NCBI GenBank assembly: GCA_005889495.1
Contig: VBHA01000066.1
Span: 1 to 38,887 of the forward strand
Length of the DNA stretch: 38,887 bases
From: Chloroflexota bacterium
Lineage (GTDB): Bacteria; Chloroflexota; Dormibacteria; Dormibacterales; Dormibacteraceae
Reading direction: 5' to 3'
Positions within the stretch are counted from its first letter, which is position 1, and each line of letters starts with the position of its first letter. A model generated the notes under the pieces. That model was not told where the DNA came from. It searched no databases and was given only the letters and a program-made list of their open reading frames with translations. Below are positions 22,128 through 27,723 of the stretch, in pieces. The position numbers were made by a program, and so were the translations under genes.

Positions 22128-22835
22128 CTAGGCGGCGGTCGGTTTCTCGCCCAGGTACAGGGTTTGCCTTCCGAGCAGCAGCCACGCCGGTGGGAAAGCG
22201 AGATACGCCCTGACCAGGGCAGGGCTCTGAGGAAGGCGGCTCTTGGTCGTGTAGGGAAGGAAGCGGGCGATGACCTGCTTGGTGTCGAAACCGGCCATGC
22301 GCGCAGCCTCGGCCAGGCTCTTCTCGGTCAGCGCCGTCTGATGGTCGATGAAATCCCAGTACGACCCGCCGACCAGCCTGATGTTGGGCTGCAGGATCAG
22401 GACCTGGCCGCCGGGTTTCAGGAGGGCGAAGGAGACGCGCAACTGCTCGAGCACGGCCTCGGTGGAAGGCAGGTGCTCGAGGTAGTTGCTGAAGAACGCG
22501 AGGTCGAAGTAGTCATTCGGCAGCACGCCGGCCAGCTCCAGCCCGCTGGCGCGGACGAAACGGACGTCCCTCGGCAGCTCCGCCTCGACCGGGCGGATGT
22601 CGGTCGCCCACCGCTCACGCGCCCGGACGTGGCGGATGAAGTAGCCCGCGTCGCAGGCGATGTCGATGACCCGGGCGTCGGGCTTGATGTAGCGCTGGAA
22701 GAACTTGCCGAGCTCTCTCCAGATCGCGTCCTTGGCCGCCCGGTCCTTCGCGTCGAACCGGAGGTCGTAGACCTCTTTGAGGACGATCGGAGGCGAATCG
22801 TCGGCGATCTGGAGTCGTTTTGGGGGCGCGGACAT
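22128..22835 (-). CDS. Class I SAM-dependent methyltransferase
   Basis: Methyltransferase of 235 residues. Motif I is VIDIACDAGYFIRHV, motif II region DIRPVEAELPRDVRF, and the post-I/IV region NDYFDLAFFSNYLEHLP. LLKPGGQVLILQPN is motif V/VI. The class is firm, the substrate is not; position before a GT87-like gene suggests modification of an envelope lipid or glycan. ATG 22835 (MSAPPKRLQIADD) is chosen because the longer ATG 22883 lies in the decaying end of a hairpin repeat and has no ribosome site. Confidence 0.8.
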   Translation of the reverse strand: MSAPPKRLQIADDSPPIVLKEVYDLRFDAKDRAAKDAIWRELGKFFQRYIKPDARVIDIACDAGYFIRHVRARERWATDIRPVEAELPRDVRFVRASGLELAGVLPNDYFDLAFFSNYLEHLPSTEAVLEQLRVSFALLKPGGQVLILQPNIRLVGGSYWDFIDHQTALTEKSLAEAARMAGFDTKQVIARFLPYTTKSRLPQSPALVRAYLAFPPAWLLLGRQTLYLGEKPTAA

Positions 22836-22872
22836 GGCTGGTGGCGACAACCTTAACGCTCGAATCCCGGGA

Positions 22873-22946
22873 TTCTTCCCCACTTATGGCGACGGGCTCT
22901 TCCCCATTCATGGGGAAGTGGCTCTTCCCCATTTATGGGGAAGTGG
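22873..22946. repeat. Three tandem 25-bp hairpin units
   Basis: Units 22897-22921 and 22922-22946 differ at a single base; each folds as CTTCCCCAT/ATGGGGAAG-like 8-9 bp stems. A third, degraded copy (22873-22896) precedes them with broken stem complementarity. They lie between the E2 and methyltransferase genes, and the last unit is also stem 1 of a two-stem element that runs to 22968. Confidence 0.75.
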
Positions 22947-22968
22947 CGCGAAGCGCCGATGGGGCTGG
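22922..22968 (+). repeat. Two-stem palindromic element, copy 2
   Basis: Stem 1 CTTCCCCAT/ATGGGGAAG (22924-22943) is followed by stem 2 GGCGC-GAA-GCGCC (22945-22957) and the tail GATGGGGCTGG. It shares order, GAA triloop and tail with copies 3 and 4, with different but still complementary stem-2 bases. Confidence 0.7.
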
Positions 22969-22990
22969 TTGTAATGAATTACTGGGGTCC

Positions 22991-24262
22991 TCAGTAAATG
23001 GGCGTCTCCAAAGTCACCGCTTCCAGCCACTTCCGGCATGAGGTCAGGAAGCGCGCGGCCTGCAGCCCATCCAGCACCCGGTGGTCGAACGAGAAGCAGA
23101 GGTACATCATCGGTTTGATTCCGATCATCCCGTCGACGGCCACGGGCCGCTGCACGATCGCCTCCATCGTCAGGATGCCCGCCTGCCCTGGGTTGATGAC
23201 CGAGTAGCTGAAGAGCGTGCCGAACGTGCCGGAGTTGTTCACCGTGAAGGTAGCGCCGGAGAGGTCGTCGGCCTTGAGCTGCTTGCCGCGCGCCCGCGTG
23301 GCCAGGTCGTTGACGGCGCGGGCAAGGCCGGCGATGGAAAGGCCGTCCGCGCGCCGCACGACGGGGACAAGAAGCGTGTCCTCCATGCCGACCGAGATGC
23401 CGAGGTTGATGTCGCGGTGGACGATCAACTCCGTTTCGTTGAAGGTCGCATTGGCGTGCGGGTTCTCGCGCAGCGCCGAGATGGCGGCGGCCATGACGTA
23501 GGGCAGGTAGGTCAGGGAAAAGCCCTCCTGCCGCTGGAACGCGCCTTTGGCGGCGGCGCGGTTGGCCACGACGCCGGACATGTCGACTTCCTGCGTCTGC
23601 CACGCGTGGGGGATCGTCTGCTTCGAGCGCGTCATGTTCTCCGCAATCAACCGGCGTACGCGCGTGAGCTGCACGACCTGGTCGCCCTCGGCGGGCGCTA
23701 CCGGGGCGGCCGCGGGCGCGGATGCCGGAGGTGCGGCCTTGGCCTTCGCCGCGAAGTCCTGGACGTCCTTTTTGGTCACGCGGCCGCCGAGGCCGGTGCC
23801 GGTGACCCTCGAGAGGTCGACTTTGAGCTCCGAGGCGGCCATCTGGACCCCAGGGGAGTACCGGTGTGATTCAACTCCTTCCCGTTCACGGGGAGGTGGC
23901 TCCGAAGGAGCCGGAGGGGCTGGTTCAACCTTCGCAATCTCGGTTTTCGCCAGCCCCTCCGGCGGCTTCGCCGCCACCTCCCCACGAGTGGGGAGGAGCT
24001 TTTCTGATGCTCCGCCCCCGGTCTCGACCACGGCGATCTCCGCCCCGGCCTGCACCGTCTCGCCCTCCTTGGCCAGGATCTCGCGCAGGATCCCCGACAC
24101 CGGCGCGGGCACCTCCGCGTTGACCTTGTCCGTGTCCACCTCGAGCATGGGCTCGAACTCGACGACCTTGTCGCCAGGCTTGACCAGCCACTTCGAGATC
24201 GTGCCCTCGTGCACCGACTCGCCCAGCTGCGGCATCACGACTCGCGTGGTCTTGCCGGCCAT
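22991..24262 (-). CDS. 2-oxoacid dehydrogenase E2 (dihydrolipoamide acyltransferase)
   Basis: Core acyltransferase of a branched-chain-type 2-oxoacid dehydrogenase complex, 423 residues. Domains: lipoyl (about 5-80, lipoylated Lys 46 in VDTDKVNAEV), a linker (about 81-130), the E3-binding domain (about 131-166, SPGVQMAASELKVDLSRVTG), a second Ala/Pro linker, and the catalytic domain (about 190-423) with active-site SFDHRVLDGLQAARF. Two inverted copies of a palindromic repeat encode residues 88-105 and 114-130 of the first linker without breaking the frame. Start ATG 24262 shares its A with the E1 stop (TGATG). Third gene of E3-E1-E2. Confidence 0.93.
   Translation of the reverse strand: MAGKTTRVVMPQLGESVHEGTISKWLVKPGDKVVEFEPMLEVDTDKVNAEVPAPVSGILREILAKEGETVQAGAEIAVVETGGGASEKLLPTRGEVAAKPPEGLAKTEIAKVEPAPPAPSEPPPREREGVESHRYSPGVQMAASELKVDLSRVTGTGLGGRVTKKDVQDFAAKAKAAPPASAPAAAPVAPAEGDQVVQLTRVRRLIAENMTRSKQTIPHAWQTQEVDMSGVVANRAAAKGAFQRQEGFSLTYLPYVMAAAISALRENPHANATFNETELIVHRDINLGISVGMEDTLLVPVVRRADGLSIAGLARAVNDLATRARGKQLKADDLSGATFTVNNSGTFGTLFSYSVINPGQAGILTMEAIVQRPVAVDGMIGIKPMMYLCFSFDHRVLDGLQAARFLTSCRKWLEAVTLETPIY
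23873..23923 (+). repeat. Two-stem palindromic element, copy 3 (inside E2)
   Basis: Stem 1 CTTCCCG/CGGGGAG (one T-G pair) is near 23878-23895; stem 2 GGCTCC-GAA-GGAGCC is 23898-23912; the tail GGAGGGGCTGG is 23913-23923. It is antisense to the E2 gene and is translated as part of its linker (residues 114-130). Confidence 0.75.
23950..24000 (-). repeat. Two-stem palindromic element, copy 4 (inside E2)
   Basis: On the minus strand: stem 1 CCTCCCCAC/GTGGGGAGG (23977-23996), stem 2 GGCGGC-GAA-GCCGCC (23961-23975), tail GGAGGGGCTGG (23950-23960). It is in sense with the E2 gene (residues 88-105) and inverted relative to copy 3, from which 26 bp separate it. Confidence 0.8.
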
Positions 24263-26325
24263 CAGTAAGCGGCGAGCTCCTTCAGGACCTTCGTGATCTT
24301 GTCGGGCGTCGGCATGAAGTACTCCTCCATCGGCACTGCGTAGGGCATCGACGGTACGTCGAGCCCGCCGAACCTCTTGACCGGCGCGTCGAGCCATCGC
24401 CACGCCTCGTCGGCGATCAGGGCCGCGACCTCGGAGCCCACCGAGACGCTGAAGTTGTCCTCGTAGAGCACGAGGCATTTGCCGGTCTTGCGGGCGGAGG
24501 CGATGATCGCGTCCTTGTCGAGCGGGTAGACGGTACGGAGGTCGACGATCTCCACGCTCACTCCGTCCGCCTCGAGGTTCTTCGCCGCCTCGAGCGCGTA
24601 GTGGACCATCAGGCCGTAGCAGAACACCGAGATGTCGCTCCCTTCGCGAACGGTGCGTGCGACCCGCAGCGGGATCAGGTACTCACCCTTGGGCACCGCC
24701 TCCTTGAACATGCGGTAGAGCCGCTTGTGCTCGAAGAAGAGCACGGGGTCCGGGTCGCGGATCGCGGCCAGGAGCAAGCCTTTGGCCTCGTACGGCGTCG
24801 AGGGGATGACGATCTTCAGACCGGGAGTCGCGAACCGCGCTTCGATCGACTGCGAGTGATAGAGGGCGCCGTGGGCGTGGCCGCCCATCGGAGCGCGGAC
24901 GACCAGGGGCACCGACCAGTCGCCGTCGCTGCGGTAGCGGTACTTGGCGATCTCGTTGGTGATCGAGTTGAAGGCCATGTGCGCAAAGTCGGTGAACTGC
25001 ATCTCGGCGACGGGCCGCTTGCCGGCGATCGCCAGGCCGAGCGCGACCCCGGCGATCGACGACTCGGCCAGGGGCGTGTCGATGACCCGGGCTTCGCCAA
25101 ACTTCGCGCGCAGGCCGTCGGTCACGAGGAACACACCGCCTTTCTTGCCGACGTCCTCGCCCATCACCATGACGCGCTCGTCGCGCTCCATCTCCTCGGT
25201 CAGCGCCGACCGCAGGGCCGCGACCATGTTCATCTCCTCGGTCTCGGCACCGGCGGGCGGGTCGATCGCCTCCGGCGCCTCGACCGCGTAGACGTTGGTC
25301 AGCGCATCTTCGGGCCGCGGGTCGTCCGCTTCCATCCCTGCCTTGGTCGCTCTGGTGACCTCTTCCTTGACCGCCTCCTCGTCCTCGGCCACCTGCTTCG
25401 CGGTGAGCACGCCTTCCTCGATCAGCTGCTTCTTGAAGCGCTCGAGGCAGTCGTTCTGGGACAGCAGGTCGATCTCCTCCTGCGTCCGGTAGCGGCGCTG
25501 GTCGTCCTCTGACGAGTGCGCGCCGAGGCGGTCGACCAGGCATTCGATCAAGGTCGGTCCGCCACCCGCGCGAGCGCGCGCGACCGCCTCCTTGGAGACC
25601 ACGTAGCACGTAACCGGGTCGCGGCCGTCGACGGTCACGCCTGGAAACCCGTAGCCCGCCGCGCGCTGCGCCACGTGCTCGATCGCGTACTCCTTGCTGA
25701 ACGGCGTCGAGATCGCGAAGCCGTTGTTCTCGCAGACGAAGACCTCGGGCAGCTTGTAGACGGCGGCGAAGTTGAACGCCTCATGCGCATCGCCCTCGGC
25801 GCCGGCACCCTCGCCGTAGCAGGTGAGGAGGACCTTGTCGGTGCCGTCCATCTTCAGCGCGTAGGCCACGCCCGCCCCGCGCACCATCTGGGTCGCGACC
25901 GGCGAACCGCCCGAGGTGATGTTGTGCCGCGAATCGGAGAAATGGCCGGGCGTCTGCTTGCCGCCCGACGCGGGATCGGCCGCCTTCGCAAGCACCGACA
26001 GCATGAGGTCGAGCGGCGTCATGCCCATCCGCATGCACAGCACCACGTCGCGGTAGTAGGGCGCGAGCCAGTCGTATTTCGGCTTGAGCGGCCATCCGAT
26101 CCCGATCTGCGCGGCTTCGTGGCCGGCGCACGAGATGATGAACGGAGCGCGTCCCTGGCGGTTGAGGACCTGGAAGCGGTAGTCGATCTGGCGGCCGAGC
26201 AGCATGTAATGGAACCACTCTGTGAGGACGTTCTCATCGAGGTCGGTGTCGCGCCAGGCGACCGGCTCCTGGAATCGCCAGTCAGGGGTGAAAGCCTCTT
26301 CCCTGGTCTTCGTGGTCTGTGCCAT
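24262..26325 (-). CDS. 2-oxoacid dehydrogenase E1, alpha-beta fusion
   Basis: Thiamine-diphosphate-dependent decarboxylase of 687 residues that joins both E1 subunits in one chain. The alpha half (about 1-340) has the TPP motif from GEG at 171 to ENN at 199-201 and the phosphorylation-loop-like HSSEDDQRRYRTQEE near 275. A charged linker (about 320-365, many Glu/Lys) leads to the beta half with VMVMGEDVG, FLVTDGLRAKFG and APMGGHAHGALYHSQSIEA. Branched-chain acyl substrates are most likely by similarity; pyruvate is possible. It starts 7 nt after the E3 stop. Fused E1 proteins are known but less common than separate genes. Confidence 0.93.
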   Translation of the reverse strand: MAQTTKTREEAFTPDWRFQEPVAWRDTDLDENVLTEWFHYMLLGRQIDYRFQVLNRQGRAPFIISCAGHEAAQIGIGWPLKPKYDWLAPYYRDVVLCMRMGMTPLDLMLSVLAKAADPASGGKQTPGHFSDSRHNITSGGSPVATQMVRGAGVAYALKMDGTDKVLLTCYGEGAGAEGDAHEAFNFAAVYKLPEVFVCENNGFAISTPFSKEYAIEHVAQRAAGYGFPGVTVDGRDPVTCYVVSKEAVARARAGGGPTLIECLVDRLGAHSSEDDQRRYRTQEEIDLLSQNDCLERFKKQLIEEGVLTAKQVAEDEEAVKEEVTRATKAGMEADDPRPEDALTNVYAVEAPEAIDPPAGAETEEMNMVAALRSALTEEMERDERVMVMGEDVGKKGGVFLVTDGLRAKFGEARVIDTPLAESSIAGVALGLAIAGKRPVAEMQFTDFAHMAFNSITNEIAKYRYRSDGDWSVPLVVRAPMGGHAHGALYHSQSIEARFATPGLKIVIPSTPYEAKGLLLAAIRDPDPVLFFEHKRLYRMFKEAVPKGEYLIPLRVARTVREGSDISVFCYGLMVHYALEAAKNLEADGVSVEIVDLRTVYPLDKDAIIASARKTGKCLVLYEDNFSVSVGSEVAALIADEAWRWLDAPVKRFGGLDVPSMPYAVPMEEYFMPTPDKITKVLKELAAY

Positions 26326-26332
26326 CGGCTCT

Positions 26333-27709
26333 CTAGATGTGGATGGCGTGGCCGTCCACGGCCATCGCCGCCTCCATCACCGCCTCGCTCAACGTCGGGT
26401 GCGGGTGGATGTTGCGCCCGAGCTCCCACGCGTCGCCCTGGAAAAGCTGAGTCAGGGCCGGCTCCGCGATCAGCTCGGTCGCGCTGGCGCCGACGATGTG
26501 GGTACCGAGCAACTGGCCGGTCTTCGCGTCGGCCACGACCTTGACGAAGCCGCCGGTCTCGCCGTGGATCTGCGCCCGGCCGATGGCGGAGAACGGAAAC
26601 TTGCCGATCTTCAGCTCGTGCCCCTTCTCGCGCGCCTGCTTCTCGGTCAAGCCGACCGACGCGATCTGCGGGTGCGAGTACGTGCATCTCGTGATGAGGT
26701 CCTGGTCCATGGGCGCGAGCCGCTGGCCCGCGATGTCCTCGGCCGCCACGATGCCTTCGTGCGAGGCCGCGTGCGCGAGCAGGAAACCACCGACCACGTC
26801 GCCGATGGCGTGGATCGACTCGACCGACGTGCGCATCCACTCGTCGACCTTGATGAATCCGTTCGGATGGGTCTGGACGCCAACCTGCTCCAGGCCGAGG
26901 TCCTTCGAGACGGCGCTCCGTCCCACCGCCACCAGCAGCTGCCTGGCCCACACCTCGCCCTGGTCGGTCTGAACGCTGACGCCGTCGCGAGCCTTTTTCG
27001 CCCCACTCACCTTGACGCCAAGGCGGCACTCGATGCCTGCCTTCTTGAACGCGGCGAGCATCTCCTTCGAGACGTCTTCGTCCTCGAGCGGCACCAGCCG
27101 GTCGAGGGCCTCGAGCAGAGTCACCTTGACCCCGAGCTGGTTGTAGAGCGTCGCGAACTCCACGCCGACCGCACCCGCGCCGATGATGCAGATCGAATCT
27201 GGGACGTCCTTGGCGACCACAGCGTTGTCCGACGAGATGATGCGTTCGCCGTCGAGCTCCAGGCCCGGGAGGGTCTTGACCACCGAGCCGGTCGCGACGA
27301 TGAGGTTTTTGGCCCGGACGAGCCTGCCGTCGGCTTCGATCGAGTTGCGGTCGCGCAGCCGGCCGCGGGCCTGCACGACCTCGACCTTGTTCTTCTTCAT
27401 CAGGTACTGGACGCCCTTGTAGAGCTGTCCGACCACCGCGTCGCGGCGCTCGGCGATCTTGGGATAGTCGAAGCCGACCACCTCGGCCTTCAGCCCGAAC
27501 TCGACCCCTCGGGTGGCGACGCGGTGGTAGAGCTCGGAGGACTCGAGGAGCGCCTTGGTGGGAATGCAGCCGACGTGGAGGCAGGTGCCGCCGAGCTTGC
27601 CGGCCTCGACCAGAGCGACCTTCAGGCCAAGCTGCGAAGCCCTGATGGCGGCGGGATAGCCGCCCATCCCACCACCCAGAATCGCGACGTCAAAGTCGAA
27701 ATCGGGCAT
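26333..27709 (-). CDS. lpdA: Dihydrolipoamide dehydrogenase (E3)
   Basis: FAD/NAD disulfide oxidoreductase of 458 residues that reoxidises E2 lipoamide. The N-terminal FAD motif is DVAILGGGMGGYPAAIRA. The redox cysteines sit in GGTCLHVGCIPTK. CIIGAGAVGVEFATL binds NAD, AIGDVVGG is the second FAD contact, and HPHPTLSE supplies the catalytic His of the partner subunit. ATG 27709 is used because TACACT lies 8 nt upstream (leaderless pattern); TTG 27718 would start inside that box. It is the first gene of the E3-E1-E2 operon. Confidence 0.93.
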   Translation of the reverse strand: MPDFDFDVAILGGGMGGYPAAIRASQLGLKVALVEAGKLGGTCLHVGCIPTKALLESSELYHRVATRGVEFGLKAEVVGFDYPKIAERRDAVVGQLYKGVQYLMKKNKVEVVQARGRLRDRNSIEADGRLVRAKNLIVATGSVVKTLPGLELDGERIISSDNAVVAKDVPDSICIIGAGAVGVEFATLYNQLGVKVTLLEALDRLVPLEDEDVSKEMLAAFKKAGIECRLGVKVSGAKKARDGVSVQTDQGEVWARQLLVAVGRSAVSKDLGLEQVGVQTHPNGFIKVDEWMRTSVESIHAIGDVVGGFLLAHAASHEGIVAAEDIAGQRLAPMDQDLITRCTYSHPQIASVGLTEKQAREKGHELKIGKFPFSAIGRAQIHGETGGFVKVVADAKTGQLLGTHIVGASATELIAEPALTQLFQGDAWELGRNIHPHPTLSEAVMEAAMAVDGHAIHI

Positions 27710-27717
27710 TGCGTTCA

Positions 27718-27723
27718 AGTGTA
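27718..27723 (-). promoter_or_regulatory. -10-like box for the E3-E1-E2 operon
   Basis: On the minus strand TACACT is followed by 8 nt and ATG 27709. It lies in the 21-bp gap after the stop of the upstream membrane-protein gene, so the operon can be transcribed separately. Confidence 0.45.

Follow-up and report, generated by a model that had tools for sequence, protein, structure and literature searches.

Two inverted palindromic elements in the linker of an E2 gene

The window, a stretch of 38,887 nucleotides, carries an E2 acyltransferase gene next to genes that we take, from their translations, to encode the E1 and E3 components (Table 1). Pfam places the lipoyl domain of E2 at residues 8-78, the E3-binding domain at 135-168 and the catalytic domain at 193-416. 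Two copies of a palindromic element, numbered 3 and 4 after an incomplete and a full copy (1 and 2) that lie just past the 3' end of the gene, are located between the first two of these domains. The first-pass annotation described them as two-stem copies in opposite orientation, 26 bp apart and wholly inside the gene, with the reading frame kept in both orientations. This was confirmed, as the two 49-nt arms are 82% complementary across a spacer of 26 nt, and the copy on the gene strand (copy 4) and the copy on the opposite strand (copy 3) share the single open E2 frame and encode approximately residues 114-130 and 89-105. The placement of both copies in a disordered linker was likewise borne out by the Pfam limits and by an AlphaFold2 model (28-row alignment) with pLDDT below 50 at residues 84-132, and the segment that holds them is predicted to be disordered.

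Table 1. Positions of the E2 gene, its presumed neighbours and the palindromic elements discussed in the text
Feature	Position	Strand	Description
E2 acyltransferase gene	22991..24262	-	Open frame, 423 codons from ATG at 24262; PF00364, PF02817, PF00198
Presumed E1 gene	24262-26325		Named from its translation
Presumed E3 gene	26333-27718		Named from its translation
Copy 4, 46-nt core	23952..23997	- (gene strand)	Read LLPTRGEVAAKPPEG; stems perfect
Copy 3, 46-nt core	23876..23921	+ (opposite to gene)	Read PAPPAPSEPPPREREG; one stem mismatch; stem-2 variant GGCTCC/GGAGCC
Inverted arms	23875-23923 / 23950-23998		Arms around copies 3 and 4
Copy 2, full	22923..22966	+	TCTTCCCC...GATGGGGCT sub-family; downstream of E2
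Copy 1, left half of further copy	22898..22923	+	Abuts the full copy
Family B stretches	L316 701-737; L317 701-738; E2 linkers of L012, L010, L020, L025, L016

Used as a query against its own genome, the 151-nt E2 linker stretch gave 97 BLAST matches (both palindrome strands counted). A distant copy at C182:14917-14964 matches copy 4 at 48 of 48 nt, and the two sequences diverge immediately on either side of the match. Fold z-scores of single copies were modest (-1.6 to -3.0), as is expected because the sequence is GC-rich.

The element is a dispersed double hairpin

An iterated profile search of the window and 38 stretches of the same genome returned 78 copies and part-copies, and the addition of 18 further stretches raised this number to 111, grouped in 64 clusters. 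The unit is a double hairpin of 44-48 nt, with a consensus of 44 nt; copies with a longer stem 2 reach 46-48 nt. The consensus, TCCTCCCCATTYATGGGGAGGT-GGCGCGAAGCGCC-GGAGGGGCT, consists of a stem 1 of 8-9 bp, a covarying stem 2 of 6-8 bp and an unpaired tail (GGAGGGGCT or ...A). Outside the unit conservation drops sharply, except for a trailing GG. In an alignment of 43 copies (34 distinct), 98.8% of 510 stem cells pair, whereas slid controls paired at only 45-58%, and 42 cells had changed on both sides of a pair compared to a mean of 10.6 in 500 shuffles. The number of further pair types in the same alignment was no better than that in the shuffles (11 versus 10.4). A search of positions 22500-24500 against Rfam 15 retrieved no match above the gathering score and 14 weak ones (E up to 1), mostly to microRNA models, and we therefore rejected assignment to a known RNA family.

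A covariance search for the two-stem unit, proposed in the first-pass annotation, showed that the copies are not unique to the E2 gene. At E <= 0.001 the model found 5-109 matches per genome in 17 of 17 genomes of the genus, numbers that are lower bounds because 104 candidates were scored per genome. Per genome, the same threshold gave 0-57 matches among 20 further members of the family and 0-3 among 24 genomes from other families of the class, and a single borderline match at E <= 1e-8 was found in one of 80 genomes from other classes of the phylum. The repeat has thus proliferated across the genomes of a single Dormibacterota genus, and some of the family has a diverged form of it. Near-perfect copies were also present in one genome from another family of the class (G040:C190:12420-12463 and G040:C12:1381-1411), which may represent contamination or transfer. 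Our literature search found no description of such an element in Dormibacterota.

Among 72,556 plasmid records only four matched the element, weakly to fairly, and no record in the phage collection did, so the element is not obviously plasmid- or phage-borne. The best plasmid match (93% over 44 nt; L315 601-644) lies on a Hyphomicrobiales plasmid (Alphaproteobacteria) and could reflect either transfer or convergence.

In-frame copies and their orthologous sites

Copies are depleted from genes. Only 10 of 145 clusters lay in frame within a gene, whereas random positions drawn from these stretches did so in 903 of 1500 cases, as called with a codon model trained on 15 genes of the window. The 145 clusters comprise 44 from our genome and 101 from relatives, the latter drawn from approximately 80 of the 150 best covariance places and hence biased toward perfect copies. 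Another 43 clusters lay between two coding flanks in differing frames, a class that may include both operon gaps and broken genes. One cluster (L064, in a 70-codon frame) was in frame by the per-copy rule and was excluded under the stricter cluster rule. In the enlarged set from our genome, 10 of 64 clusters were in frame in genes.

By Pfam, at least ten genes of our genome hold in-frame copies: those for E2 (two copies), a prolyl oligopeptidase (two), TruA, GltB, a PHP-domain protein, Ffh, a Wzy_C protein (four in tandem), DnaX, a UvrD-like helicase and Fpg (two copies or part-copies). In relatives, in-frame copies were found in the oligopeptidase of G016 and in CarB of G011. Copies on the same strand as the gene occur in nine clusters, eight of them read in the LPIHGEVARSAGGA frame and one, in the UvrD-like helicase, in the PPHSWGG frame; opposite-strand copies occur in four clusters (GltB, DnaX, Fpg and E2 copy 3). 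Because five of the six consensus reading frames are free of stops, openness alone has no power to explain this preference.

Several of these sites are empty in relatives. GltB is of the short form in 11 of 13 relatives and 39 nucleotides longer in our genome, and G003 and G014 carry unrelated short inserts. The 244-residue form of TruA is found in 18 of 19 relatives; our genome has 66 additional nucleotides, and G005 has a shorter, element-like insert. A four-protein tree places our genome (G000) as sister to G005 (0.895) and G016 with G007 and G008 (1.000), and the TruA inserts of our species and its sister may stem from one event. Of the relatives that cover the oligopeptidase site, 14 of 17 lack an insert and G006, G012 and G016 have versions of their own, with that of G012 itself nested. 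The oligopeptidase site is filled in G016 and empty in G007 and G008, its sister species, so that the inserts are more simply explained by repeated insertion into one loop. In Fpg, 7 of 14 relatives are empty and 7 carry inserts in several frames and orientations. The Ffh insert is shared by our genome and G016, one of 18 covering relatives; this case comes from the protein alignment, as motif-based DNA extraction gave a single row.

The net gain at these sites differs from the length of the element (in GltB a 43-nt match adds 39 nt, and the gain in the oligopeptidase of G016 is 27 nt). They are near-exact empty sites in relatives and not clean insertions. The Fpg and GltB stretches of G002 and G009 are identical (L344, L345, L359, L361), which suggests cross-binned contigs or a recent transfer, and these two genomes were not counted as independent cases.

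E2 linkers of the genus hold different palindromes

The first-pass annotation expected close relatives to lack about 130 bp at the E2 site and to carry the element elsewhere. The clean-looking empty sites in GltB, TruA, oligopeptidase and Fpg agree with insertion, but the E2 gene itself has no such simple absence: we found no clean empty site in any relative, and the linkers contain other palindromes within the genus and plain Ala/Pro sequence in most other genera. A palindrome signal was present in every one of the 14 genus members whose E2 linker could be read, and the signals come from more than one family. The longest hairpin beat dinucleotide shuffles (p <= 0.025) in 11 of these 14 linkers versus 2 of 15 from other genera, and in 12 of the 14 genus members it exceeded every window from the catalytic part. 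The linkers of G001, G005 and G010 fail the hairpin test and have family A matches at E <= 0.002. At E <= 0.01, in a database of 29 linkers only, family A matched 7 of the 14 genus linkers and 1 of the 15 others. Family B, a second palindrome of the form CCCTCTCCCC-loop-GGGGAGAGGG followed by GGGGTGAGGGG and read as PSPPRGEGRGEG, was found by BLAST in the E2 linkers of G007, G016, G008 (twice), G009 and G012, and by eye in those of G006, G014 and G015.

Linker lengths range from 43 to 87 residues in the 14 genus members and from 33 to 104 in the 15 proteins from other genera, most of which have a plain Ala/Pro linker. Because these ranges overlap, the palindromes substitute for linker sequence without lengthening it, and the earlier suggestion that they tune the length of the swinging arm found no support.

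Copy 3 is identical at 47 of 49 positions (96%) between our genome and G016 (G016:C35:10702-10732), two species that are not sisters. Fourfold-degenerate sites in the catalytic part of the same two genes agree at 52%, and the stem-2 variant of copy 3 occurs only in these two E2 genes among 37 genomes. Such conservation is not predicted by simple neutral decay; local recombination, late transfer or a constraint on the hairpin are possible causes.

The E2 copies might instead be retained by selection, either on the length or stiffness of the linker or on a hairpin in the E2 mRNA. A palindrome signal in every readable linker of the genus would fit this explanation, and so would copy 3, which has diverged far less between two species than the gene's synonymous sites have. 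However, the families, orientations and copy numbers vary among the E2 linkers of different species, palindrome-free linkers have overlapping lengths, and copy 3 of our genome carries a stem mismatch, and we consider selection on these copies unlikely.

Nesting, mobility and relation to known repeats

Nesting was seen for seven of 183 distinct full copies, each flanked by the left and right halves of another copy, where 1.3 would be expected if the two halves occurred independently. The left half stops a few nucleotides upstream of the inner copy and the right half starts directly downstream. Where the picture is clearer, the pieces on either side are both arms of one stem 2, and the inner copy therefore lies at its apex. 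Left halves (26-29 nt), right halves (14 nt) and whole units also form tandem arrays in L043, L044, L061, L069, L070 and L071, which look as if derived from slippage. No flanking duplication was seen at the GltB, TruA, oligopeptidase and Fpg sites, where the relatives compared have diverged.

Short, high-copy palindromes that are mostly intergenic recall REP sequences mobilized by a Y1 (RAYT) transposase. One study describes GTAG- or CGTC-tagged REPs as having these properties and as lying in some cases inside open reading frames, often of replication and repair genes (PMC3733652), and Fpg, DnaX and the UvrD-like helicase are among the genes affected here. In contrast to REPs, the Dormibacterota element consists of two adjacent hairpins plus a tail, its consensus ends (TCCTCCCC and GGAGGGGCT/A) carry neither tag, and no GTAG or CGTC flank is conserved in 57 copies. 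A search for Y1_Tnp was negative in all 17 genus genomes, which are incomplete drafts, and positive in 5 of 14 control genomes. We therefore rejected a REP mobilized by a RAYT in cis, and regard RAYT mobilization as quite improbable for this repeat.

The first-pass annotation compared the copies to the palindromic elements of Rickettsia (RPEs), which are described in three papers as repeats tolerated in frame in conserved protein genes, with different RPE groups at some orthologous sites (PMC3767692, PMC10969869, PMC2229807). The likeness holds for tolerated in-frame insertion: the Dormibacterota element also lies in frame in conserved genes, at several sites that are empty in relatives. Membership among the RPEs fails on size and taxon. 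By description, RPEs are approximately 100-150 bp long, whereas this element is 44-48 nt and GC-rich; they come from Rickettsia and Wolbachia, whereas the E2 relatives here are titled Chloroflexi or Dormibacterota MAGs; and a large share of RPEs is genic, whereas most clusters of this element are not. Mitochondrial double-hairpin elements also consist of two adjacent GC-rich hairpins and are dispersed and in part nested, but they are organellar, and the likeness is by description only. One paper presents ERIC, RU-2 and other bacterial MITEs as small repeats with open frames that become fused to host genes (PMC2229807). Compared to the present element, MITEs are longer, and most of them have terminal inverted repeats and a duplicated target site, neither of which was seen here in comparisons with diverged relatives. 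The Dormibacterota repeat is thus a new family that resembles RPEs in its way of life, yet is neither an RPE nor a tagged REP.

Origin and persistence of the E2 copies

Copies 3 and 4 are very probably copies of this proliferating double-hairpin DNA repeat that are tolerated in frame, with the E2 linker serving as a refuge. The earlier proposal, that a mobile palindrome persists within genes because the peptide it encodes is tolerated, is upheld by the copies elsewhere in the genome, the nesting and the in-frame clusters. Insertions would land anywhere, either at random or seeking hairpins, and those in genes would be purged by purifying selection unless their net length is a multiple of three. 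Survivors would add a peptide, most often LPIHGEVARSAGGA, to a disordered linker or a loop. In E2, the linker would absorb nearly any Pro/Gly/Glu-rich peptide, and such tolerance would make it a refuge whose palindrome families differ from species to species. An ordinary low-complexity, GC-rich Pro/Ala/Glu linker with hairpins by chance was rejected as an extremely improbable explanation: linkers from other genera are as rich in these residues and of similar length, and 3 of the 14 genus linkers have non-significant hairpin p-values, but the 48/48 identity to the C182 copy largely refutes it, and the own-genome matches, the covariation, the difference in the hairpin test between the genus and others, and the same element in TruA, GltB, Fpg and other genes at sites empty in relatives all stand against it.

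In-frame palindromes have been described above all from the reduced, intracellular Rickettsia; the present case is independent and lineage-restricted. It comes from soil bacteria that are free-living and GC-rich, in which orthologous sites with and without an insert occur alongside each other. These sites form a natural data set on which loops of conserved enzymes tolerate approximately 15 extra residues, and the spread of palindromes lacking a transposase becomes testable through strain comparison.

More tentatively, several unrelated palindrome families may keep filling the same permissive loops in orthologous core enzymes (the E2 linker, the oligopeptidase, Fpg and TruA) without a RAYT in cis and often by entering the apex of older copies, and one family may cross phyla, being read as PSPPRGEGRGEG in the E2 of Dormibacterota and in an HlyD-like protein of Azospirillum. 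If so, permissive loops would be landing pads, palindromes would repeatedly supply proteins with new segments, and the genus would amount to a natural insertion scan.

Family B is widespread, with 462 places in 83 plasmid records, mostly from Azospirillum. In the HlyD-like protein of Azospirillum oryzae it is read as PSPPRGEGRGEGG, the peptide of the Dormibacterota E2, and in RbbA of Azospirillum sp. B510 it is read in a different frame.
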